Assembly (NCBI RefSeq): GCF_026151205.1
Contig: NC_087076.1
Span: 3,371,902-3,435,901 of the forward strand
DNA from: Bolinopsis microptera
Taxonomy: Eukaryota > Ctenophora > Tentaculata > Lobata > Bolinopsidae
Length of the DNA stretch: 64,000 bases
Reading direction: 5' to 3'
Both the position numbers and the translations under genes were made by a program. The notes below the pieces were generated by a model. The model saw only the letters and a program-made list of their open reading frames with translations. It did not search any database and was not told the DNA's origin. Below are positions 2,519-64,000 of this stretch, one piece after another (within the stretch, counting starts at the first letter, position 1; each line of letters starts with the position of its first letter).

Positions 2519-5500
2519 ATAGACCTAGGAGACGAGTATTCCGACCTTGAAGACCTACACAGAAGCCTTAGTGAAACCCTATCAGAGGTAACAATGGTAT
2601 CCCCATTCTCCATCCTATAACATAATTTTTTAAACCTTCAATTTGTTTACCCCTATTATATATATCCAAACTAGAAACGACAATGCATTAAGACCGAACC
2701 TTTATTTATTTTTCAATGAAAAAGCATGGATTACATAAACGTTGATAAGAAACCAGACATTTCAGATGCAAAGTACCCTCTACGAAATAAAAAACAGCGA
2801 CCACTCCACCATTATTAATCAGGTAGACTAGACTTCTCATAATCTTCTCTTAATTTTCTATCGTTCATTGTTGATTATAACTTCAAATTATTCATTTCTT
2901 TTTCACTGGGACTTCTTACAATTCTTTGCACGAATCTCTTCACGTAGCAGGAGTTAATAGACACGTTATCAGTCGTCACTAAATCCACATTTTTTCACGT
3001 AAGTCCCGCCCCAAAATCCTCAACAGTAGCAAAACTTAATCTCAAAATGGGAAGTTCAAAGCATTTACTCCTAAACTGTTTGCGAGGCCCGGGAATTAAA
3101 TCACCCCTCAGCAGAACAATCAGAGTTTGCAGCTTTCACAGAATTTATATGGAGTAGAATTCTAAATCTGAACCACTTCCCGTCTCAGATGAACAGTGAA
3201 GTAAGATCCCTTACAATAAAGGTAAACGACCTTCAAAGCGCCAAAGAATCGTTAGAGAGCAAAGTAAGCTCGTTGGAAGCGGAGATGGACTGCGTCATGG
3301 GCCGAAGAGAGAGTTGCAGCCCTTCCACATGTATGAATGGGGGTTCCCTCATATCAGTGAGTTCTAGCAGACATTTCTTACTTGATAGGCTAGTCCACGG
3401 CTAGAGGCACAGTCTAGAAAAGAACGGCGTCTCTTTTCTACCTAACTATTTACCTAGAGTCTCTTTACCTGACTATTTTAAGTTATTTAAGGCATGTAAG
3501 TTCATTTCGTGACTAAGATTAAACGACGTTCTTCACCCAGGAAGGAGAGTGCCTGTGCCGGCAAGGCTTCACGGGTGATCACTGTGAAACAGATGTTAAC
3601 GAGTGTGAAAGTAGCAGCCCCTGCTTAAACGGTGGTAAGTTTCAAGTCAGTCTGAATCCTGCACTAGAGCATGTTTGTCAGGATATAAAAAGGAGTTGGG
3701 TAATTTAGCAAAAGGAATCCTGACAAAAGTCACTAGTCAGAGTAAACTCGTTGAAGAATAACATGAAGTATCACCAGCAAGGTAACGTGAAATATTGTCA
3801 GGGCGTTGTAAGAACACATATGGGTCCTACAAGTGTAACTGCCCGATAGACTACTACGGAGCGAGATGTGAGCAACTTCACGACGACTGTAGTCCCAATC
3901 CGTGTGGAAATGGTAGGTACCTGGGTCGACACCACGCTCCTCAACTCCATTCATTCCACCTTATCTCTCCAGTTTTCTTAAACTGGCTGTAAAACCAAAT
4001 TTAGGTTCATTGAGGATTTTTAGTAAACAACGACCTGGTCCACCGTTTTTCGATGCTGCATAAACCAGATTTAAATGTAGTTCTTTAGCCGAAACACATC
4101 TCGCCACGGAGCTACCACTTCCAGCTCCAGCTCAGGTTAACATCAGTTGTCAGGATCTGCCACCAAGTGTTCCATATTGGTTTATGTCATATTGTCCAGA
4201 TCACAAGGATATAACATTCAGCACATATTTTAACCGAAGGCAATTGTTACAAACCAAGTTACACATTCAATACTAAGTTGTTCGACGTGTAACAACATCT
4301 TGACCAGAATTGAGCATCAAGTTCACCAGAATTGAGCACCAAGGTCACCAGAATTGAGCACCAAGTTCACCAGAATTGAGCACAAAGTTAACCGGATTCA
4401 ACGCCATGTTGACCTCAACCATTCCGGCAGGTCTGTGTTTTTCACCAGGTCGGAGAGCAGAAGGAGTGCCCCACTTCCAGTGCATCTGCAACGCAGGTTG
4501 GGAGTTCCCTGAAGACGACTACTCTTGCTCCAAGGTTACCTTCCCTTTCTTATACCTGTTATCTATCCTTATCTTATCTTAACTTATAATTGCTCCTCTC
4601 TGTAACTGATTTCAGGGTTGGATCACCAGAATAATGAGCGGAAAGGCTGTTTCAAATTGTATGTGACAGCCTTTTCAAGTCAATATTCTAGTATGTGACG
4701 ATGCCTTGGTCCATCGCGACAATAAACCCAACATCCAACTCATTAGCCTCCAAACATAATGCAAGTCGACAAGAAAAATTATTCCGGATTTTTACAGGAC
4801 ATAAACGAATGCGAAGAGATCCACCTGTATTGTGACGAGATGGCGACGGACTGTGATAACACTCAGGGCTCGTACGAATGCACGTGTCCGGTGCGTACTA
4901 TCTTTGCGTAAAGTTCTTATCACTTCCGGGTCAGGTGATACGAACAATCACCTGACTTCCGGGTCAGATATCTGTATCATTATTTAGGATTCCATATCCG
5001 ACACGAAACAAGAAAACGTACAGTTAATTTGGAGCTGTCCCTGTGTAAGGCGTACTTTTTTAGGGTATTATTACTTACAATGTTTTCGATATAAGAAATG
5101 AACTAGTCCACTTTTCAGTCAGGATATTTCGGGTCTGGTAAGATGAGAGAAGGAGGTTGTATAGAGATAGCAGACTGCTCCTCTGATCCTTGTTATAACG
5201 GCCAGTGTGTGGACCTTAATATCGGGTACGTCATCATAACTCACCAAAATGTAATCAGAGCTCGTTCATCTATTGTTTATTGTTTTATATCGATTCAATA
5301 TAGATACATGCCGCAACAGACACCTGAAAATACGCCTCCAGGCGCCCTTTTGAAAAGGTAGTCGGCATGTTGCATTGCACTGCCGTAGTCGGCATGTAGT
5401 CGGCATTTGCAATGATACATCTCCGATAATGACATAATCCTTTATTCGACATTGTGTTGAGTCAGAGGTACAGAAAGTACAGCATTTCTTAATCAGATCT

Positions 5501-36600: not shown

Positions 36601-39600
36601 ATCATTCGTGGAAGAATACTACGAAATTTGATCATCTCTTACTTATGTTACTCTGAAAATGCTTGTTTATCGTAATATATATTACTGACTGACTGATATT
36701 GGTTTACAGCTGTTGTCGAGTCAGTAAGGGACGGAGGAACCCTGCGTCTGATGCTGGTACCCACCATGAACTACATCACCCTCATGTTGACTGGAATCAG
36801 ATGTCCTTCTTTTAAACCTGATGGTGGTTCTGAGGACCATGCTGACGAGGTGAGATTAACATTTTTACATTTAGAAATTAAGAAACTGCTTTTTTATATT
36901 AGCGACAAGAGAAACGCCATTGTTGGAGACGTGAGGAGAGTGAGGACTCCTCAAACTACATTAAATTATTTCCTTCTGTAACGTCCTCAATAAATGTAAT
37001 AGATTTGTAGTGTTGTAATTAGTTTAAAACTACAACATAATTTCTGAAGCAGGAATGATTTTACTTTTTCCTAAGAACAGATTTCTCCCGATAGTTAGGC
37101 TAAAGTACTTTTGATTTTGCGGCCTACATGGAGTGGTTGTGTGATCATTAGTTTTATTATTTGGACCACATGGAGCCAAGATTTGTCGTTATCTTGATAA
37201 AATTTAAAACTGCATCATGAATACTGAATATGTTACAAGATGATTGATGATTATTCGTTAACTCCAAATATAATTTACATCAGCGAGACTGTGCTCTTAC
37301 TATTTAGATGTTTCCCAATCTTCCCATACAAATAAAAAGGATGACTACAGGTTAAACCATATTAGTGCAAATTTTATTGAACATTTTCGGCTCTCGCTTT
37401 GGGTAATGGTTAACAGGTTACAGGCTAACAGAACTGAATGGTAGCAAGATAACGTTATAAAACAGTTCACTTCTGGCTTGTTAGTAGGAACTGAAATTGG
37501 ATTTGCGTCTAACACACCCCCTATAGCATCCCAGTTGAGCAGTGAGTTAGTGATATTGAGATGGTTTAACTTGTAGTTTATCTGGGAACAGAGCGATAAC
37601 AAAGCCGACAAAACTTTATCATGCTTCCATAGTGGTGATCGAGCTCAGTTTGAGGTTGTTAACTCGCTGTTTTCATCCTGAATAAATCAACGTTGTAAGC
37701 TTGCTTTGACACGGTTGCAACACATTACACACCGTCCTTAGGGTTGTTTAATGGAAAGAGTCTCACAAGTGGTTCTTACTTACAAGTGGTAAAACTTAAA
37801 TGAATAGAATGATATTTATATTCGATATTTTCTATTGATAATCAAAATATAGGATGCCAGCCTTTGATGACTGTAGTTATAGAAAATTTTGATCGTCAAG
37901 AAGTAAAGGTGTAAGGTTTGTCCTGTGAAATATAGAGCCCAAATTCAGATTTGACCATATTGAGAGCTTACGCCTTACAGCTGTGCATCATTCACAAGAT
38001 AGTTGTAGCTACTGAGCTGCGAGATTGCGAAATAGTCATCATCAGCAGTGGTTCACTGATTGCGTAACATTTGTACATTATGTAGACCCACCAGATATTC
38101 TTGCCGCTGTGCATATTTTACTAATCCCACAGGAAGGCCAAGAGTTGTTGTTTGAGAGCTCTCTGGGTTTTAATTGACCTCGAGCTATAGGTTATTGGGC
38201 TTGGGTCCCCGAATTTAAAGCACCTGTCACCTTGTGGTTGCTAATGTACAGTGTATATGGGCGGGGTATGCAGGAATGCTCTTTAGTTCTGTTGGAATGC
38301 TAGAACAACTTAACTGAAGCAAAGTAAATGCGATTTAAATTTGTAACTATTTTAAGAATTTGTATTAATGCTTTTCATACAAAGTTACAACAAAGTCTTC
38401 ATGTTATAGTTTACCTCTTATTGATGTTGCATGTTAAAGAAGTATCTCAATTTTCCTAAATTTCAGGCACGATACGCTGTTGAAACTCGATTACTTAACA
38501 AAGACATCGAGATTTTACTGGAAGGTAACAATGTTATTACAATATGTTAAATTTATTATCGTTGGCAATTTCATTCAGAATCCTTCTATACTTGTCCATA
38601 GCGACTATCAAATAGATTTGGTAGATACGGCACGTGTACTAGTCCATCTTAAGACGAGACTTTTTAATCGAAAATCTTTCCCAACAGTACATACAGGATT
38701 AGACAATCGAATTAAAATATAGTTTTATGTCAATTCTGTTAAAAGTATTGTTAATATCTTAAATGGGATTCCAAAACACAAAAACGTGTTGTTAATATCT
38801 TAAATGGGATTCCAAAACACAAAAACGTGCAAAAACTGCAACCACATGGCCCTGTAAAAATATTTGTGTTATAAACAATCACTTAAAACTGATTTATGAC
38901 AACAAACCATTGCAGGTACATCTGGAGGTATGGGTAACGCCAGGAATCAGAACTTTGTCGGAAGTGTTGTCACACCAGTAAGTTCCCATTTCCGTCCTAT
39001 CAAATTAGTGCCACAGAGCAACAACAGTCACAAAGTAGCGCCCTGTAGGTGTGGTAGACGTCGCGCGCGAATCGTTCCTCGTAAGTAACAGACCTTACAG
39101 TCAGCCAAAGTCGTGACGAAAATTTCGCGCGCGTAATGCCTTAAGATTCTGAATTATCATACATGACGTACATTCTCCAGCATGGATAGTATTGCTATCA
39201 GCCATGTACGGCGTACACTTTTATACCATGCTTCTTTCAGGGAAACATTTCTTTGTTCCTGCTTAAGGAGGGTCTTGCCAAATGTGTGGATTGGAGCATG
39301 AAACTACTCACAGCTGATCCAGAGTCATATCGTGCTGCAACTAAACAAGCTAAGGCGGATAAGAAAAGACTGTGGAAGAACTATGAAGGTACACAATTTG
39401 TGCAGATTTCCAATTTCTGAAGTTTTACTCAGTACTGTGTAGGTCGAGTAAATAATTTCGTTGTGTCATGATTTACTGAACTTATTTATCCATGTGTAAT
39501 GTGTTTGTTATTTTCAGGACCTGTATGCACTGTGCCGAAAGATCAGAAAGAATTCTCTGGTAGAGTAACTGAGATTGTGAATGGTGAAGTATTAGTGATC

Positions 39601-42600
39601 AAGGTAGGAAGTGTCTACAAAAGAGTGACAATGTCGTCCATCAGACAACCTCGTCCAGCTGAAGGCACTGACGCTGGTCCCCCGAGCAGGGCTCTCTACG
39701 AAGTACCATATCTTTTTGAAGCTAGAGAATTTCTCAGAAAACGACTGGTAGGAAAGAAAGTGAATGCCACAGTTGATTACGTGAGGCCAGCTGCTAATGG
39801 GTATCCTGAGCGAGTGTGTGCTTCTATCTTCCTTGGTAATCAGAACATTCAAGAAGCAACCGTTAGCAAAGGTCTTGCTACAGTTGCGTGGCACAAACAA
39901 GACGACGATGAGAGAGCTGCTAACTACGATGCTCTTTTACTTGCACAAGAAAAGGCTAAGAAGGTATTAGATTGTCGATATAATTTTGTATTGAAATTTT
40001 CTTCTGACCATCAAATTTTTTCCGATTTGAATCTACAGACATTTTTCTTCAGATCTTTCAACCTATAATTTTTAGAACAAAGTTGGCGTCCACTACGGCG
40101 GAGAGCCACCTATTCACAAAGTAGCTGACCTCGCTGGAAACGCTGCCAAGAGCAAACAGTTTCTGCCTTTCTTACAGAGAATCGGTCGACTTCACGCCAA
40201 TGTGGAGTTCGTCGCCAGTGGCAGTCGCATCCGTGTTTACATTCCTCGTGACACGTGTCTAGCTACATTCCTTCTCAGTGGCATCAGGTCTGTGTAGTTT
40301 CTCTCTAGAGATGATGATTTTGAGAGCATTAATGTCTCACCAACTATCACGCTAAGATGTTTATCAGTGCGTCCACAATTTGTCCAATTCATGTCTGAAC
40401 TCTCAATACAAAGAGTTTTGAATGTTTACTTCTTAGTTGTCCGAGAGCAGGCCGACCATCTATCAAAGGACAGCCGGCTACACCTGCCGAACCCTTCGGC
40501 GATGAAGCTCTTGAGTTTATCAAAGATCAAATTATGCAGAGAGAAGTCGAAATTGAAGTTGAGAGCTGCGACAAAGCAGGTTTGCAGTAGATTTGATCTT
40601 GGTTGTTTGAATTAAATTGGTACAGTTTCTTATCATGAATACTGAATAGGACCGTCTACCTCCCTTTATTATAACTGAGTCTAATAAAAACAAAAAGAAA
40701 TTGTTTTTTTTTGCACAAAATATTTTTGTGACTTTGAGCTGATTATTTGCAGGTAATTTCATCGGTTATCTGTTTGCGGAAGATAAGAACATGTCTGTTG
40801 AACTTGTGAAAGAAGGCTTGGCCAAAATGCACTTCACAGCAGAACGCGGAAAATACTTCGATCATCTTTCCAGGTGGGAGGTCATTTTGTCATTTCGCTC
40901 AATTTTCAAAGTCAATCAATGCCTTTTAATTGTTCGTTAATATTTCTTCATTCCTTACTTAATCATGTCAACCCTACAGAGCTGAAGCAGACGCTAAAGC
41001 AGACGGAAAGAGAATGTGGAAAGACTACGTTGAGACAGTCGTAGAGAAAGAAGAATTAACAGAAATCTCAGACAGCAATAAAGCAGAATCTACTCCAGCA
41101 TTAAAGGTTAGTTTGCTTGACAATGTGGTCTTCGGAGAGTGGCGAAAATTTACTGAAATTACCTTTCATTTTTAAATAGACACTTTAACATGTGTTATTC
41201 CTCACAGATCTATATTTACAGGAGGTAGTTGTAACGCATTTAGAAGATTGCAGCAAACTTTGGGTACAGAAGTGCGCGGACGGACCCGGTTTAATATCAC
41301 TAATGAACCAAATGAGAGCAGATCTGATCAGCGATCCTCCACTAGCTGGCAGTTTTACTCCTCGCAACGGAATGTTGTGCGCTGCTATCTTTAGTGAAGA
41401 CAGTAACTGGTAAGTTATATACCTTTTCCTCTGGAGTCTGGGTAATGGTATCTAGACCTGCGAGACTGTTTTCCTGGAGTCTGTATGCACATTGCTCAAT
41501 AAAATTGTGTATTTTACCTCCATTTTCATTCAAAGTGTAACAAACTCAACCACACCTCAGGTATAGAGCTAAAGTACTGAAAGTTCACAAAGATTCAGAC
41601 TTAATAGATGTTTTATTTATTGACTACGGTAACCAAGCTACAGTGTCCTCAACTGGTGCAGCGCAGCTCACTCCACAGTTCTCCAGTGTTCCCGGAGCCG
41701 CGGCCGAGTGTCAGCTGGCTTTCATAGTCCCTCCTGAGGACGAGGATTGGAAAGAAGAGAGTCTCAGAGAAGTTCAGGTCAGTGAGAGTAGTTCAGGTCA
41801 GTGAGAGAAGTTCAGGTCAGTGAGAGAAGTTCAGGTCAGTGAGAGAAGTTCAGGTCAGTGAGAGAATGGGGTAGGGTGGTCTGGGGGACTGGGGCGTTCA
41901 GATAGTTAGGGGTCGTTCACATATTACGTAATCAATATATCAATTTTTACCCCCCTCCCCCCTCCGTAATCAACCGTAATCAAGACCCAACCCCCCCCCC
42001 CCCTGACAGCAATATTACGAATCATGGCCTGACCCCCCCCCCCCCCCCCCCCCCCCATTGACTTTTTTCCCTGGAAATCATTCTTCTTTACGTTTCATGC
42101 TACCCTGATCATGATGAGCCGAAATCATTGTTATGATATCCGGCCAAGCACCTTTCAAACTACTTGCTATAATGGATATCCGATCAATTTCTAAATTTTA
42201 TCACTATCATAATGAAATTGAGTGGAATTTGAATTAACATATTGTAAATTGTTATTATTCTAGAGGATAAAAAAGAAAATGTTTATTACGTAATCAACCA
42301 TCAAACCCATCCCCCCCCACCCCCCCCCCCCCCCCCCCCCCCCCGTAATCAACCGTACGCGTAAGCATTTGGAAACCCCCCCCCCCTCCCCCTCGGTTGA
42401 TTACGTAATATGTGAACGACCCCTTATATTATGAAATCATTCATGTATATTATCTGTTTTATCAACTATGGAGTTGTACCTTACAAAGAATTGGAATTAT
42501 GAAAATGAGTTGCGGAATTATGAAAGCGAATTGTTTGTAAATGTCATCGGTGCAACTTCCCCGACCAGTTATAAAAGGATTTCAAGCCGATTTATAGATT

Positions 42601-54751: not shown

Positions 54752-54860
54752 TAACCGGTTATTATTTAAAAAAATTAAGTATGCAATATTTCCACATTTT
54801 CATCATGACGTATATACTATATCATAAAACCAAACTAATGAGACAATTTTCATAGAAAAG

Positions 54861-57800
54861 ATGGGCGATGACAAGAATGACCGACGCCGGCGGAGTACTC
54901 TAAGAGTAGAAGCGACTGGAACCTACTACAGTCCAGTCATTCCAGCTGGAAGCCAACGTATAAGCAATGGGGGAGCAATGAGGGAGAGTCGCATTCAAGG
55001 CAGCATTCGACCTCGGGGTCGATCTCGGGGCGACACTCTCATTCCAATACACCCACTCTTCAACAAGGGGAAAATACGACAGTTTCTATATGACGTTGTG
55101 GAGGATAAGCGGTTCCATTCCTCCATGTTGTTTATTATCCTGACTAACACCGCCTTGATTGGTCTTCAGACCGTCCCTTCAGTTCATAACAAGATTGGGT
55201 GGTATCTCAATCAACTGGATGTGTTTTACCTTGCAGTGTATTTTGTCGAGTGTATCCTCAAGCTTGGTGCTATCCATTTCAGTTATTTTAAAGACAGATG
55301 GAACGTGTTTGATTTCTTCATCGTTATAACCTCGCTAATTGATTTCGTATGGCCCATGATCATGGAGGACCAAAACTTATCTCTCGACACCGACCTTTTC
55401 AAGATTTTCAGACTCCTGAAAAGTTTCAGGGCACTGCGAGCATTGCGGGTAATCCGCACAATTCAGTTCCTGAAAAATCTTCAGATCACGGTGAACGCGA
55501 TAATCCAATCCATTCCTGCTCTGGGAAGCATCATTATGCTTATTGGACTGGTTCTGTACATATTCGCTATTATCGGGAAAGGACTGTATAAAGACGTCGA
55601 TCCCATACGTTTTGGAAATATAGGTTAGAGAAATTATAGATTACTAAAATTGTATAATAAAACAATCATTTTACGATTATGTAAATAATTTTATAGTAAT
55701 AATCAATTAAAATCTGAAGATTGTGAACTTTAAAAAGGTTTCACAACGACCTAAAATCTGCAGGGTTTGCTGCGTTTAGTCTGTTCCAACTGATTACACT
55801 AGACGACTGGTTCCTGATGTACTCGGAAGTTCAACAGAAGCACCCTGACTACTGGCACATCCTCATCTATCTTGTTACTTTCATTGTCTTGGAGAACTTT
55901 ATCTTCATCAACCTCTTCATCGCCGTTATCGTTGATAACCTGGAAAGGTTTGCAGAACACCGTTTTTTACATTTGCCATTCTTATTTGGATAGTTTTGTA
56001 AAACCAGAAAAGATGGAGTAGAGAGGAATAATCATATGTACCGCAACAGTTTACAACTGACATGTGTCAAAACTAATAGTGTGACTTTACTTTGAGCGGA
56101 GCCGCGACCCCTTACGGGACTACCTGAGCTTTTAAAATATTTTAAGCTTTCTGTGGACTTTCTGGACTTGAAAACTGTAGGGGAGGTTACACAAATGAAA
56201 CTTCTCCTGATCTGCTGTGCCCAGAAACTATCACCAAACTACTGTTGTTAAATGTTCACCCAATGTTCCTTCACACAGTAGATACATCAATATGTCTTAT
56301 ACAGAGCCATGTGACGTCAATCGTGTTGCATGGTTAAAAATACTGGAACGGATCACTTTTTAAAATCAGGAGGCAAGAGTTGGACCATCGAGCTACATCA
56401 TACATATCTGTAAATAATGTGTGTGTTTCTCTAATTTCTCTAATATCTACAGACTGCCTTTAATTTCCCTCCGTCGTGAAAAGGACGTATTCACATGTTG
56501 CCAGCTGACTTATTGCAAGCTTGTACGTGGGATTGTACTTGGCCTTCTGCTGAATAGTTCACTTGAAATTAGCCTGATTCTTTTCAATTGATTAATTGAT
56601 TGCTCGAGGCAAGCTGTTTGTTGCATATTTATAATTAGGAGTAGGAGTAGGAGATCTAGGTACATATGTACAAACTTTAGGACCAGCTTGTTTTGTAATT
56701 GAGACTCTATTACTAAGCTATAGTACTATAGTACAACATCTTTTAGTCACATACAGACATAAAACCAAGGCAGCTGCACTGTGAAGTAGTATCTTGGCAT
56801 AATGGCAACTCACTTTGCTTTGTAACGATCATTATATGCATTATTTGCTTTCCTTAAAACTATTTCGATTATAAAGTACGATTAAAATGTAACCGTTTCG
56901 ATAGCATCGTAATTTTATTTCTATTCAGGATAACTGAACATCTAGCTCTGGCTGTTCCAGCTTCATGTTATAAAGATCGATCATGTGTTCTTAAAACTTT
57001 GCAATAGTTGCAAGTCTCATTAATGAAAATGCCTCAATGCTTGTTATCATTCACAGCATTCTTCACACTGTCCACAATTTGACATAATGTCTTGTTACTT
57101 TGTTTAGATTTAATGTTGATCATGTCTGAGGGCCGGTAGATTAAGGAATTCTCATTTCTCTCGCCCATGCTTAACAAAAAGGCCCCGTTGTGTTTACTCA
57201 TACTACTGCTTCAGTACTCGCTGTAAAATATTTCTGTCGACTTTTTATTCTCGAAAAGCATTATCCATTATCAATAGAAACACCACCATGTTTCGACTCG
57301 TGTTTCGAAATTGTGTGAATTTCACCTTAATTGAGCCACATTTATGAATGAACGGATGGCGATAATTAAATCATCGGCACATTATCTACCACTTAATTAA
57401 GCATTCCTACTCGTTACCTTAACGCATCTACATGCCCTTCAATTATTTAATTTCTCGAATCTAAATTGAATCTGTGGTCCTGGAAACACGGAATAAAACC
57501 AGAAGATTGCTAAAACTACCCCTACTCCCTGGTACTCCCTCCCGTACTATCAGCCCGATATCATGTCAGGAGCTCCTTCCCCGTACGTGTAGCTATACGT
57601 GTGATAAGTGGGATATACACCACTATATTACCACTATGGTTCCACACAGTGTCCAGCTCTGAGCTTCTAACACCTTGTCCGGTTTAACGTGTGGTTTGTG
57701 CTCGGTGTTTTAGTGTTTGTTGGTACCTGGTGGAAACCACCACCTCCTTCACACATTAATTATTATTCAATTTTCGCCTGGTTCTATCCCATACCTGCCA

Positions 57801-59442
57801 GCTTTCTACTTCGTTCCAAAATCCAATATTCACCTAATCATTTCATCGCAGGGAGTATTCATACTCTAAACTTCTTCATGGTGTGCCACAGTCGACTGTA
57901 GCACTTAACCTCTAACTATCGTTGTTGAAGTTCTCTTTGATGGTCTATGATCAAAGACATTTTTTTAATAGTAACCTTTAATGAGATATTGTAACATATC
58001 ATTACGGTTTAATGAGTTAGAAATTGATTTGTGTTTGTAATTGTTGTCTCCAGATTCTAGAAGGTTAATGAGCTGTCTCTATTTCCTCCCTACTTCTCTC
58101 TTGACTTTGACAAAATAGTCTGATTTAAACTTGCGGTTAAACTGCAATCAGAATTTACACTTCATTGAAGCGTTGTAAAGTTAGTCATCTTTTCTGTTTC
58201 TAATTTCCACCACACCACACCACACCACACCACACCACACCACACCACACCACACCACACCACACCACACCACACCACACCACACCACACCACACCACAC
58301 CACACCACACCACACCACACCACACCACACCACACCACACCACACCACACCACACCACACCACACCACACCACACCACACCACACCACACCACACCACAC
58401 CACACCACACCACACCACACCACACCACACCACACCACACCACACCACACCACACCACACCACACCACACCACACCACACCACACCACACCACACCACAC
58501 CACACCACACCACACCACACAACACAACACAACACAACACAACACAACACAACACAACACAACACAACACAACACAACACAACACAACACGTCACACTTA
58601 ACCCCACTGCACCACACCACATTTCAGAGCTCACGCTGCTGCCAGAGAAGAATCGTTGCAGGTGTCGGCTAGTGTAGAGTCGATGGACTCGAACGAGGTG
58701 GTCACAGCCATGGCTCTCGATGAGTAAGTTTAAGATATATTTCTGTTGAACAACCGACTCAATTAACTTGATTTGATTTGCAGCTTGTTAGGTAGGTAGG
58801 TTGTTGCTTCACTGTTAGAAATATTCAGCTGCTCAGCATATAATGTTTTCTAAAGTACACCAGAATCTCTCTTTCAGTCAAATATTGCACGTTTATTTCA
58901 CGTCTTATTGATCGAAAGATTGGTTTCATGTTTTTGGTACAATTCATGCAGGATCTGGATGAGTGAATCGAATCAATAACTTTCTCGATGATTCCAATTT
59001 CAATTTGAACCAATGTTTTGAAATACAATCTCGCATTTCACTTATTCGGATCGGTTGTGTGTCCGTTGACTAAACATTTTATCGGACTATTTGATGGACG
59101 GGTAGTCCGTCCAACTGTCACGTGCACGAGCAGATCAAACGCCACAATTTCAACCTTCATTTTATTTCAGGAACATTCTGTTTTTTCTCAGCAAACTTTT
59201 TTTCACGCAAACTTACATTTCACACCAAATCACACGAAACTTTTAGAGATAAGATATTCGACGAAGTGCCCCCCTCGGGTACAGTGGAATTCTACTACGA
59301 GGGCCGGAGAGACAACGTTACCAAACATATCGCCCGTTACACTGAACTCATGGCAACCCTCGAATTCTACATAGAGCGCAGTCAGAGTCACACCAGAAAC
59401 CTTAACAAACTCCTCGAACTAGCTAAACGGTCAAGTCATTGA
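54861..59442 (+). CDS. CATSPER1: CatSper cation channel pore subunit, CatSper1-like, complete, 4 exons
   Basis: Exons 54861-55623, 55764-55947, 58628-58723 and 59247-59442 join in phase with GT/AG borders into 412 residues. A short arginine-rich N-terminus (~80 residues) precedes six helices: S1 about 86-106, S2 118-137, S3 149-167, S4 180-203 (FRLLKSFRALRALRVIRTIQ, positive charge every third residue), S5 218-240, and S6 285-312. The pore loop holds ITLDDW at 265-270; the T-x-D-x-W pattern is the CatSper selectivity-filter signature. S4, the DPIRFGNI linker and the TLDDW pore resemble CatSper1 more than CatSper2-4. The C-terminus is helical and charged. Known role: one of four subunits of the sperm-tail calcium channel controlling motility. 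Human CatSper1 has a very long His-rich N-terminus that is absent here. Intron 2 ends in a large ACCAC satellite. Confidence 0.92.
55948..58627. other. CatSper intron 2 (2.7 kb)
   Basis: Non-coding, AT-rich, ending in the pentanucleotide satellite at 58207-58590 just before the exon 3 acceptor. Short open frames at 57474-57901 have no support. Confidence 0.7.
58207..58590. repeat. Pentanucleotide satellite (ACCAC)n switching to (ACAAC)n
   Basis: About 63 perfect copies of CACAC/ACCAC (58207-58520), then about 14 copies of ACAAC (58521-58590). It ends 37 bp before the CatSper exon 3 acceptor. All minus frames stay open and give meaningless VWCGV repeats. Confidence 0.97.
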
Positions 59443-61975
59443 CACTCTATAATATAAAGATCTGTGCGACACAATGCGACACAGTGCGACACAGTGCGAC
59501 AAAGTGCGACACAGTGTGACACAGTGCGGTCATTGTGTAATTTATGTTATCATGTTATTACTCCTACTGTTCACACACATTTCTAGGTTCATAGGACGGA
59601 CTATATCGTATTCTATTGCACAAGTGTTAGATTCAAGTTACCGTGTCAAGGTTAGCGCCTGTTTGCCGATCTTATTCAACTTAAATCCCTTAAAAGTTCG
59701 GATGGAGTTTTATGGAGTTCGTAACGTTTTTGAAATGATCGCCCTCATGATAACTTACAATTCCATGGTGTTAGGTCACAAATTTATATGTTTGTCATAT
59801 ACATGATGACATTGCGATGTTTTAAATTTTCCCTACTTTTTTGTCAAAACATGGTCAAAATTGTGTGTGAATTTCTCATTTTGTTTATTTGGCACACGAT
59901 TCACCTCGGAAGAAATAATAATGACATTAACAATACATATGTTATGCAGCTGCTGAAAATGAGTCATTGTTAGACAGATTTGATATTCCCCAAAGTTGGC
60001 TATCGTAAATAAATACCTCTGATTTCTCTTTGCTTCAGTCCCTCATTATTATAACTCGGACTTCTTCACAATGAATATCTTAGATATTTATATCAGTCAC
60101 ACTTTTTAGAGAATAATATTACTTTTTGTCAGTGTTCATGTTGCTTGATCCAGAATGTAGCATGTAGTATGGTAGTTTTATAAGAGTTTCAACACATATC
60201 AACTTTTAGCGTTCTTCACATGAGTCAGTTCACTTGTACGAATTCACTGTTCTGCTTATAACAAGAGTTACGTTTGATCGAAGCTACAATACTGAACTGT
60301 AAATGTTGTCATCAGCAGCCAGATATAATTCTTACAATCATAAGATATTATTTGTGATATGTATTTCTACATTTGTTTTAGTCATGTTCGATATCTGCTC
60401 CTTACATTGAACGTAGTCGTATATTGCTTAGTAGCTAGCAAATTATTATTCAGGCTATACTGAGCTGTGTAATATCAAAAGAGTATGAGACAATGAAAAT
60501 CACCGTTTAATACTCCTAAACTGAATCTATATTTAAGTAACAATGCAGTGGTCAATGGTTATGTATTTTACGATCATCCAATACATTCAATATGAATATC
60601 ATTGCTCACCTAAATTATGTAAGGTCCTGGTTCTTCCCACTTTTCTAATTTCCTCTCACCTGATAGAGACAATAAAAGCACATTACATGTTAATCGAGGT
60701 TTTTTTCATGATCATATAAATAAAATAAATAATATCTTATTTCATATTTTTATAATTCCATAACTTTATATTGTTGCCTCTTGTGTTTTGCAGAGCATTA
60801 TTCAGTCAACCATATCCATTTATCTGTGTTGAGACTTGAGTGTATGTGGCAGGCTAATTGGGATTGACAGTACGTGACCAGTAATATAATATTATCATTC
60901 GAATTATTCTCTTTGGAATTGACTGGCAGAGTTACCGTGCTCATTTTAACATTTGAGAAGTTAGCAGCTTTATTTTGTGAATTTGTATTCAACTTTCAAC
61001 CACTTTGCTTGAAGAATTTGTATTGAATGTTATGAGAAATATCCGGAATGAATGAGTGGCTCTCTTCTCTGATCTTTTATAATTAATCCGAATTATCCGA
61101 TATTGTATTCTGTCATCACTTTTTTCAACGGATTCAAATTGACGTAACAGCATGGACAAATGCTCTGCTCACTGTAAATCTCGTTTTTGAATTTCTTCAT
61201 GGGTGACGTATGTTGTTTAGGCTGACAATTTTATATTTTGTACCGTCAACAAATGGGCTCGTTAATTTTAGCCACGCCCACAACGAAGAATTGTCAATAT
61301 GTGATAAAATTAAACTGTGATATTTATACTTAATTAGCAATCACTATTAACGCTATCAAGCTACAGCGATCTCTGTTGTTTAAACATAATTAATATCTTG
61401 ACAAACCTATATTATATTGATGAAGGAGCAAATATGTTGCTCCGTGTAGAGATGACCGTGTAATGAATTCTTGGCTGACTTCTTGAAAAGTTTTGCCCAC
61501 CCGCTGTGCATATATATCAATTTCTATATGTTAAGATAGAGTGAAGATACATATCTTTGATATCAATTGTGTTGGTTGTATAGTTTATCTGCTTGTATTC
61601 GAAGTTTTCTGATATATATAATATGAAGAAGCTGTGTCATTTCGTGAAAATTTCGTGCATATAGTGCTTAATAAAATCCAATTACTTTGACATATACAGT
61701 CATAGACTCTATACTATAGAGGAGTTCTTAACAACTTTCAGCGACTCAAAGTTATAACTTATGTACTTATTAGGTTTAAACGCCGCCTTTTGGTCATGGT
61801 CAAGGCTTCGCATTGTTCATGTTGCTAGTAAGGGGCTCGACAGTCATGTAATCCACTTTTCCGATCATAATTTAATTGTTATATGGTTTATTGATGTTAT
61901 CGTTTGTTTAATCTACTTTCGTCTTTATATAGATTTTATGGAATAAAACAGATTTTATCTGATCGCTCGAAGTAG
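59443..61975. other. CatSper 3' flank and intergenic DNA
   Basis: Starts with the CatSper 3' UTR, including a short TGCGACACAG repeat (59462-59528). The rest is AT-rich with no supported gene. Confidence 0.5.
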
Positions 61976-63512
61976 AACTGGATAGAGAGCTGGTCAGGAC
62001 GCTGATGTTGAGTTATGAGAGCAGACTGAAGCTGTTGCCGTCCTCATGTCTCAAGACAATCCTCCCACGAGTTGCTTCTCCTGCACTCGCTTCACAAATA
62101 CTCTTTCAAGGTTCGTTTTGTTGCTGTTTCGTTTTCAAATTTACCCGGTTTTCATGCTGCTCTATTGTTTAAGACAAGTTTTCTGTTTAACTTTAAGTTT
62201 AACATACGACTAAGTAACTGAAGATGTAGAATCTGCTCCATTAACATTTCGAATCCCGGCAACTTGATAAACATTTCAGATTAGTGCGACGAAATAGTAT
62301 AAAGCCTTACGAAACTGATACCTCAGATAAGGTAAATAAGTCAATTTAGAATGTCAGTAGTTTGAAGATCGGCAAGTTTCCATAAACGATATTTTATGAT
62401 CGGCGCCGATAATCGCTTATTGAGCGCTTTCTCGGCGTTTTTTTTAAAAAACCGTTTATAATCGATTTTTTTACGATTATAAACGGTTCAAAAAAAATCG
62501 CTTATAATCGACTATAATTGATGTCATAATTCAAAAAAGCGCTTTTTTGAATTTAAAAGCGCTTATAAGCGCTTTTAAGCGCTTATAAGCGTCGCTGAGC
62601 GATTTGAAAGCGGTTTTCCAGTAGGATTGGCGCCAAAAACGGGTGGATAAGCGGTTGGCCGGATAAGCGATTCGTAGGCGCTTTTTTGAACCATTTATAA
62701 GCGATTATAAGCGCTTATAATTGGGGTGCAATTTAGCTGTTTGTAAAGCGCAAATAAAGCGCTTATAAGCGCTTTTAAAATTGAGTCAGGAAAACGCTAT
62801 ATTACATCTTATAACCGCTTATAATCGATTATAATCGCTTTTTAGAAATCGCTTATAACGGCTAATTCATCGCTATTTTACCGCTTTTACCGCTTTTCCT
62901 ATCATCCATGGCCAGGTGAGCAGGAATTAAAAAGCGCTTATAAGCGCTTTATTTGCGCTTTACAAACAGCTAAATTGCACCCCAATTATAAGCGCTTATA
63001 ATCGCTTATAAATGGTTCAAAAAAGCGCCTACGAATCGCTTATCCGGCCAACCGCTTATCCACCTGTTTTTGGCGCCAATCCTACTGGAAAACCGCTTTC
63101 AAATCGCTCAGCGACGCTTATAAGCGCTTAAAAGCGCTTATAAGCGCTTTTAAATTAAAAAAAGCGCTTTTTTGAATTATGACATCAATTATAGTCGATT
63201 ATAAGCGATTTTTTTTGAACCGTTTATAATCGTAAAAAAATCGATTATAAACGGTTTTTAAAAAAAAAGCGCCGAGAAAGCGCTCAATAAGCGATTATCG
63301 GCGCCGATCATAAAATATCGTTTATGAAAACTTGCCTGAAGATCTTCTCCAAAAAACAAAAAATATAAAATAGTAATCAACAATCCGGCAAATTATTGAC
63401 AATTTTAAATAAAAACTTGATTTGAAGTCAACAATTTTTCAGCACAATGTTAATGGAACCACTGTCCTCAAAGTTTACCAAAATGAGGCTGCTCTTAAAA
63501 TGGAAAAATCTG
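61976..63512 (+). CDS. Three internal exons of an unidentified gene
   Basis: The exon about 61976-62110 encodes ELDRELVRTLMLSYESRLKL and then TILPRVASPALASQILFQ. The exon 62285-62331 adds VRRNSIKPYETDTSDK, and the exon 63443-63512 adds HNVNGTTVLKVYQNEAALKM before a GTAAGT donor. Phases agree (1, 0, 1) and borders are GT/AG; the first acceptor (GAAGTAG) is weak. The first exon looks like an alpha-helical repeat protein. I do not recognise the family. The start and end of the gene are not visible; it should continue past 64000. The intron 62332-63442 contains the large foldback element. Confidence 0.5.
62371..63336. mobile_element. 966-bp foldback element with about 407-bp arms and 8-bp target duplication
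   Basis: The left arm 62371-62777 and right arm 62930-63336 are near-perfect reverse complements with outer ends GGCAAGTTT and AACTTGCC. The exact octamer TGAAGATC flanks both sides (62363-62370 and 63337-63344). The arms are built of short palindromes such as AAGCGCTTATAAGCGCTT and GGCGCCGAT. The roughly 150-bp centre has no coding capacity. An 8-bp duplication suggests mobilisation by a hAT-type or other 8-bp-duplicating transposase. Confidence 0.93.
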
Positions 63513-64000
63513 GTAAGTCTTTGACTTTTAATCGATTTTGTTAACGTCCTGTGCAATTGCAAACCATGGTGTGACTGTGAATGGCAGTGTCTTTAATTAG
63601 AGCTGCGAAAATGACACGAGTGCACATGCATGCATAATTTGCATATGCTTAATTGCTTACGGTTGCCATTATGCTGCCGGGGAGTGTGTACCATTGTACC
63701 AAAAGGATCCTACCGCCACAAGACACGGAGATCGACACCTCGTCCACTAGTTTGCTATGGTCACCATTTTTTGTGCTATTTCATAATTTACTATCGAAAG
63801 TTCCGGTTGGCGATTCAGTTAATCGGTGTTCTAAAGAAGTTTCTGTCACATCCGTGTGCCTTCTTAGTTCAGATTGATAAACGTCTGTTTACGTATGTTT
63901 ACGTCAGGCCAAAATATTTGGTGTAAATTCTACGAATGGTACAATAGCGAGAGAAAAGCAATTAATTAAGCTGTCATGCCTGATATCATTACTCATTGGA
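63513..64000. other. Intron or 3' flank of the unidentified gene
   Basis: Follows the donor at 63513. Two overlapping plus frames (63630-63926, 63653-63877) lack domains and splice support. I see nothing else. Confidence 0.5.

Follow-up and report, generated by a model that had tools for sequence, protein, structure and literature searches.

The window, i.e. the whole 64,000-nucleotide stretch of DNA analysed here, contains one copy of a large and little-diverged family of foldback elements. This is probably a family of non-autonomous DNA transposons, for which Merlin (IS1595/IS1016-like DDE) is the most likely mobilising superfamily. Because the same ends recur across the genome, the palindrome in the window is neither a product of chance nor a lone assembly error. 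The element (62371-63336, 966 bp) is a near-perfect inverted repeat flanked on both sides by an exact 8-bp duplication, TGAAGATC. With both duplications it coincides exactly with the interval 62363-63344, described in the initial annotation as a near-perfect foldback with an exact 8-bp target duplication. Its features are the following.

62363-62370, + strand: left target-site duplication TGAAGATC, identical to 63337-63344
62371-62390, + strand: left end motif GGCAAGTTTCCATAAACGAT (200 exact genome sites, reversed control 0)
62371-62779, + strand: left inverted-repeat arm, 409 bp, from the arm alignment
62553-62591, + strand: tandem 10-bp modules (TTATAAGCGC) of the left arm, from TRF, with 10-bp spacing
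62780-62926, no strand: 147-bp spacer between the arms, matching the inward portion of the end (~583 bp) found in long members
62927-63336, - strand: right inverted-repeat arm, 410 bp, from the arm alignment
62930-62950, no strand: 21-bp palindromic module, putative deletion junction, common to both sides and enriched in comparison with simulated junctions
63115-63153, - strand: tandem 10-bp modules of the right arm, from TRF
63317-63336, - strand: right end motif, differing from the 20-base motif at one position (column 9, C vs. T)
63337-63344, + strand: right target-site duplication TGAAGATC, identical to 62363-62370

The alignment of the two arms has 404 identical columns out of 410, with 5 mismatches and 1 gap. 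The 10-bp module TTATAAGCGC and its variants are abundant in both arms, where they form nested palindromes. The arms are indeed built of palindromic modules, as previously proposed: GCGCTTATAAGCGC is found in 4 copies inside the element vs. 0 in the remaining window, AAGCGCTT in 14 vs. 0 (shuffled mean of 0.008), and GGCGCC in 4 vs. 3. The hairpin foreseen for the RNA was also recovered by folding, with a predicted energy of -734 kcal/mol, whereas 20 dinucleotide shuffles averaged -235 (sd 8.5; z -58.8). An Rfam scan of positions 60000-64000 gave no match, and no gene model could be fixed around the element.

Then, we searched the genome (264.65 Mb in 232 contigs) for other copies. An initial search scored 40 of its 277 candidates. 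The 20-bp end was found exactly at 200 sites, 83 preceded by a purine and 117 by a pyrimidine. With up to two mismatches, 242 sites were counted (100 of them among the matches listed, the 42 non-exact ones being known as a count), vs. 0 for the reversed control. Ends facing each other at less than 15 kb formed 85 pairs, which together cover 409 kb, while 30 ends were unpaired. Among the latter is the left end of the window copy, its right counterpart departing from the motif by one mismatch. The length distribution of these pairs is bimodal, with 18 pairs of 89-1140 bp, 67 pairs of 2844-8961 bp and none in between. The element is therefore not the single copy without related ends that the initial annotation had considered as the contrary outcome of such a search. 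A looser probe, the 16-base end with as many as 3 mismatches allowed, yielded 4213 sites vs. 2601 in the control, with 100 sites among the matches listed, and thus cannot serve as a census. In addition, a second subfamily shares the first 16 bases of the end and differs in the sequence inward of them.

The two arms of one element differ on average by 4.9 bases over about 400, vs. 9.1 between elements, and none of 10,000 random re-pairings of arms was as close as the real pairing (14 elements, the asymmetric L067 and L068 being excluded). This likeness is a tendency rather than a rule, since the partner arm is strictly the nearest one for 9 of the 28 arms (14 when ties are counted). The low divergence between arms suggests that the copies are young.

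We also counted the copies with target-site duplications, a check called for by the initial annotation. The flank set comprised 42 elements, reduced to 41 by excluding L013, in which the motif is missing from the left end. An exact 8-bp duplication flanks 32 of these 41 elements, and 35 have a duplication with at most one mismatch. In the other six, the flanks differ at two or more of the 8 bases, one of them having a 7-bp duplication, and no duplication of 9 bp or more was found among the 41. As a control, mispaired flanks gave no match in 1640 comparisons. All 32 exact duplications differ in sequence, and their A+T content is 71% vs. 61% for the window. Beyond these 41 elements, two further exact 8-bp duplications were found, AATTTAAC and CTCAAATC. 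A spacing of 6 bp separates two foldback ends at one locus (L016:8430-8436; C7:13239733-13239740), an arrangement resembling the insertion of one copy next to or within another copy's duplication.

Fourteen long loci were read whole. They and the window copy share a ~583-base end, inward of which the long loci have tandem arrays (69-bp and 269-bp units in L009). With 5 of these 14 loci as queries, a core was found to be common to most other long members, with private stretches in some of them. No transposase was recognised among the open frames of at least 100 aa of the 14 loci. The weak matches given by a Pfam scan of 10 of these frames were below cut-offs and were taken as chance, and an Rfam scan of 6 of the 14 loci gave no match. 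For a 13.2-kb pair (C7:707994-721155), a sample of 2 kb contained 366 bases matching the shared core and 1197 bases matching a stretch that L019 alone has among the long members, with no open frame over 101 aa in the sample.

The window copy corresponds to about the first 583 and the last 408 bases of a large member, with 21 bases (AAAAGCGCTTATAAGCGCTTT) common to both sides. It thus looks like a deletion derivative joined inside this 21-bp module. We scored the junctions of 19 of the 20 small members (L023, with a left reach of 0, was dropped): 9 have at least 19 shared bases, 6 have none and the rest have 3-6. With a cut-off of 19 bp, which was picked after the data had been seen, the excess over simulated junctions is significant (9/19 vs. 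26/190; P = 0.001, Fisher test), and a rank test gave P = 0.048. These data suggest that members lose their interior when repeated modules are joined to each other, in the manner of interrupted gap repair. With sizes running from 89 bp to 9 kb and junctions in palindromic modules, the family also suggests how MITE-like hairpins may arise from large parents.

The family has the features of a foldback: long terminal inverted repeats able to fold back, tandem modules within them (of 10 bp in the window copy, and of 69 and 269 bp in the L009 arrays), strong differences in copy size (85 pairs of 89-8961 bp), and a duplication within the 8-10 bp of this class (exactly 8 bp in 32/41). The sea urchin TU elements have, as here, long inverted repeats with short tandem repeats and an 8-bp duplication, and differ by their 15-bp repeats. 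Galileo, of the P superfamily, presents a foldback-like architecture outside Mutator, as the window family probably does, and differs by its P-type transposase and ends. According to the available parts of two papers (PMC4079207, PMC3169594), the foldback form arose in several superfamilies, mostly in Mutator, and in P for Galileo. The same parts describe two foldbacks with tandem modules, so that the architecture of the window element is not new. Tm1, a Mutator/Foldback element of root-knot nematodes, also has terminal repeats of composite type that contain tandem modules, both MITE-like and large members, and no target consensus; it differs by its 14-bp modules, its mostly 9-bp duplications and the Phantom-like MULE transposase of some members (PMC3169594). 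Tetris, from Drosophila virilis, is also a non-autonomous foldback with tandem repeats in long terminal repeats, a related short element (DAIBAM) and no autonomous copy found; it differs by its three complete copies and its duplications of 8-9 bp (9-10 bp in rearranged copies), its superfamily not being settled (PMC4079207). Of the undescribed family with an unusual modular code that had been suggested, the large multi-copy family is real, and its tandem-module architecture belongs to an already known class.

We then looked for the enzyme. Since most known foldbacks are MULEs, an origin in Mutator (MULE/Phantom) was tried first, in which the family would be moved by a MULE transposase of the same genome. 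MULE duplications are mostly of 9 bp and range from 8 to 11 bp, so that 8 bp is admissible, and the genome contains 98 matches to PF10551 (MULE). Most foldbacks are also placed in Mutator in the available parts of PMC4079207 and PMC3169594. However, none of the 98 MULE matches lies inside 79 end pairs of the family (76 exact pairs and 3 of the second subfamily), so that no same-ended copy with this transposase was found there, and the 24 kb around each of the 216 ends known at that stage are equally free of them. Moreover, the duplications are of 8 bp in 32 of 41 elements and never of 9, whereas those of Tm1 are most commonly of 9 bp in the part of PMC3169594 available. The ends and module-built arms also resemble those of the Merlins of the same genome, a likeness of ends that was scored against Merlin ends only in a genome that also has 98 MULE matches. 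We consider a MULE origin unlikely. As no MULE match was found in or near the pairs, Merlin was tried.

The published marks of Merlin, in the accessible part of PMC8101967, are 5'-GG ends and 8- or 9-bp duplications. The window family has GGCAAGTTT, and thus terminal 5'-GG, at both ends, and the exact 8-bp duplications counted above. Its GGCAA start is common with Merlins of the same genome, the nearest Merlin end agreeing at 7 of 9 bases and not over the full terminus. These Merlins also have module-built long terminal repeats (see below). Unlike Merlin, the window family has no transposase: no same-ended copy with a DDE_Tnp_IS1595 transposase was found, and inside 89 end pairs lie 0 of 61 Merlin-family matches, 0 of 124 Merlin-protein matches and 0 of 86 accessory-protein matches. 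In consequence, the family is not filed under Merlin. The autonomous relative with the same ends that the initial annotation proposed to look for did not appear either: no autonomous copy with GGCAAGTTTCCATAAA ends was found with the end patterns, the Merlin family and protein, the accessory protein or the 14 long members, nor any of the 98 MULE matches inside the 79 pairs. When nine Merlin proteins were compared with the foldback loci read, a single match with E <0.01 was obtained, an accessory-gene remnant lying beside and not in the element.

One locus was considered as an autonomous partner (C1:4836-4841 kb) and rejected, as its Merlin pieces, 1.8-2.1 kb from the foldback, read as a separate Merlin remnant. 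This decayed Merlin (C1:4836462-4840808, partly L023), with TGTGCCCCAAG-type modules and an accessory-gene end, adjoins a foldback element of 222 bp, which is flanked by a duplication of its own, CTCAAATC.

The GGCAAGTTT ends, the 8-bp duplications and the arms made of 10-bp modules fit Merlin better than MULE, the sole other superfamily tested. The family has the appearance, and probably the behaviour, of a foldback mobilised by Merlin. Its transposase would be provided in trans, most likely from the Merlin superfamily, and would recognise the GGCAAGTTT ends and, with a partner protein, perhaps the repeated 10-bp modules too. The element would be cut out and inserted elsewhere, with duplication of 8 bp of the target. 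Short members, including the window copy, would derive from parents of 3-9 kb that lost their interior, the remaining parts being often joined within a palindromic module common to both.

Other cut-and-paste superfamilies also make 8-bp duplications (P, hAT, KDZ), and a foldback belonging to one of them would account for the absence of the family's own transposase from searches that covered Merlin and MULE; Galileo is a precedent as a foldback-like member of P. We nevertheless hold it to be quite improbable, the ends being GG here whereas those of P and hAT usually begin with CA. An inverted duplication or an assembly artefact is extremely improbable: although assembly or snap-back replication can make near-perfect palindromes, neither fits 200 scattered exact ends, 85 pairs and exact 8-bp duplications that differ among 32 of 41 elements.

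In support of the Merlin reading, we examined the Merlins of this genome. It contains 61 DDE_Tnp_IS1595 matches, and 124 matches to one Merlin protein used as a query. Ten Merlin loci were read and the limits of five elements established. All five have GG ends and an exact 8-bp duplication, the ends being, in short form, GGCAGTATC, GGCAGTTTA, GGTAACTCG and GG[CG]AA[CG]TTGG (two copies of one family). Their longer forms are as follows.

L080: Merlin end GGCAGTATCGAG, exact 8-bp duplication
L082: Merlin ends GGCAGTTTACAAG and, at the other end, GGCAGTCTCC, exact 8-bp duplication
C7: Merlin end GGTAACTCGG, exact 8-bp duplication
C13 and C6, one family: Merlin ends GG[CG]AA[CG]TTGGTCG, exact 8-bp duplications

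The scan for these ends imposed GG/CC; a rerun free of this rule gave the same best answer for C7, C13 and C6, and the GG ends of L080 and L082 rest on the imposed scan. A sixth Merlin has GGCAACTTGTACG (short form GGCAACTTG) and L078 has GGTCAAAG at both ends, in each case without a duplication. The rule-free scan of L073, L074, L078 and C4 gave no clear end pair, and L077 was covered by the GG/CC-imposed scan only. In an alignment of six Merlin transposases, invariant acidic positions (D165, D228 and E265 of the first) fall in the blocks expected of a DDE enzyme.

In all four Merlin loci run through TRF, 11-bp tandem modules fill part of the terminal repeat, with 29, 21, 14-36 and 28 copies. 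In addition, a second frame was found in 8 of the 10 Merlin loci, in one of two forms and in varying orientation to the transposase.

L075:1347-1676: 11-bp module array (TRF)
L078:1186-1420: 11-bp module array (TRF)
L076:1329-1630: 11-bp module array (TRF)
L079:2713-2863, 3024-3421 and 3548-3705: 11-bp module arrays (TRF)
L075:3262-4131, + strand: accessory frame
L080:2558-3433, - strand: accessory frame
L073:2586-3356, + strand: accessory frame
L076:3452-4300, + strand: accessory frame
L074, L077, L081 and L082: accessory frames also present

The sequence of the 11-bp modules differs among the four loci, and their length is near one turn of DNA. The inverted repeats of C7 (80% identity) are up to about 600 bp long and those of C13 (88%) up to 1.1 kb, both longer than the 24-462 bp of Merlin terminal repeats given in the accessible part of PMC8101967. 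Since the same part reports internal tandem repeats in several Merlin families, repeats within Merlin are not new in themselves. By eye, the accessory frame begins with a Cys-rich region, continues with low-complexity sequence and finishes with a helix-turn-helix-like part. A Pfam scan of four of these frames gave sub-cut-off matches only, and the end of one form has 86 matches in the genome. Our guess is that this candidate accessory protein binds the modules.

Still more tentatively, in a reading that we rate as less likely than not, the Merlins of this lineage could have become a two-protein system, in which a DDE transposase would cut GGYAR ends and a helix-turn-helix accessory protein would coat arrays in which each turn of the helix corresponds to one module of 10-11 bp. 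Such a module code might repeatedly drive the foldback form, families like that of the window being pure end-plus-module parasites. Merlin would then join Mutator and P as a third superfamily giving rise to foldbacks, and other orphan foldbacks with an 8-bp duplication, e.g. the sea urchin TU elements, might belong to it.

Three further observations were made on Merlins. In C6:10842000-10852500 (L087, L081, L088), three tandem copies of a Merlin left end follow each other at intervals of about 1.25 kb (joined offsets 724, 1970 and 3242). In this Merlin, the transposase frame is fused with an accessory-type frame (481 aa). On the same contig, Merlin, MULE and accessory-gene matches cluster within about 0.5 Mb (15.35-15.85 Mb), which is perhaps a transposon graveyard or a piRNA-type cluster.

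Foldbacks have been linked to inversions, deletions and double-stranded RNA, and the mobilising enzyme of many of them is not known. Those with a known enzyme are tied to Mutator and exceptionally to P in the available parts of PMC4079207 and PMC3169594. If Merlin moves the window family, one more enzyme class would join those thought to mobilise foldbacks. The Merlins of the same genome retain open transposase frames and are thus named candidate enzymes. As they share with a large, low-divergence family the end type, the duplication length and the module-built arms, which enzyme moves a foldback is now testable. The form itself is known; what is new is the probable link with Merlin, together with the long, module-built terminal repeats found in the Merlins. 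A search for Merlin together with foldback gave one plant review containing both terms (PMC10794571), and another gave three papers in which the word foldback does not occur. As these searches covered open-access text, the family may have been described earlier.

Finally, other features were observed elsewhere in the window: an SND1-like exon (39472-40068, + strand) and an exon resembling CatSper1 and voltage-gated channels (54828-55628, + strand; CatSper1/sodium-channel-like). Along with 13 contigs measuring 15-26 Mb, these exons point to an animal genome. A short simple repeat extends over about 500 bp (58160-58680), and its frames translate as (TTPHH)n and (CGVVW)n.
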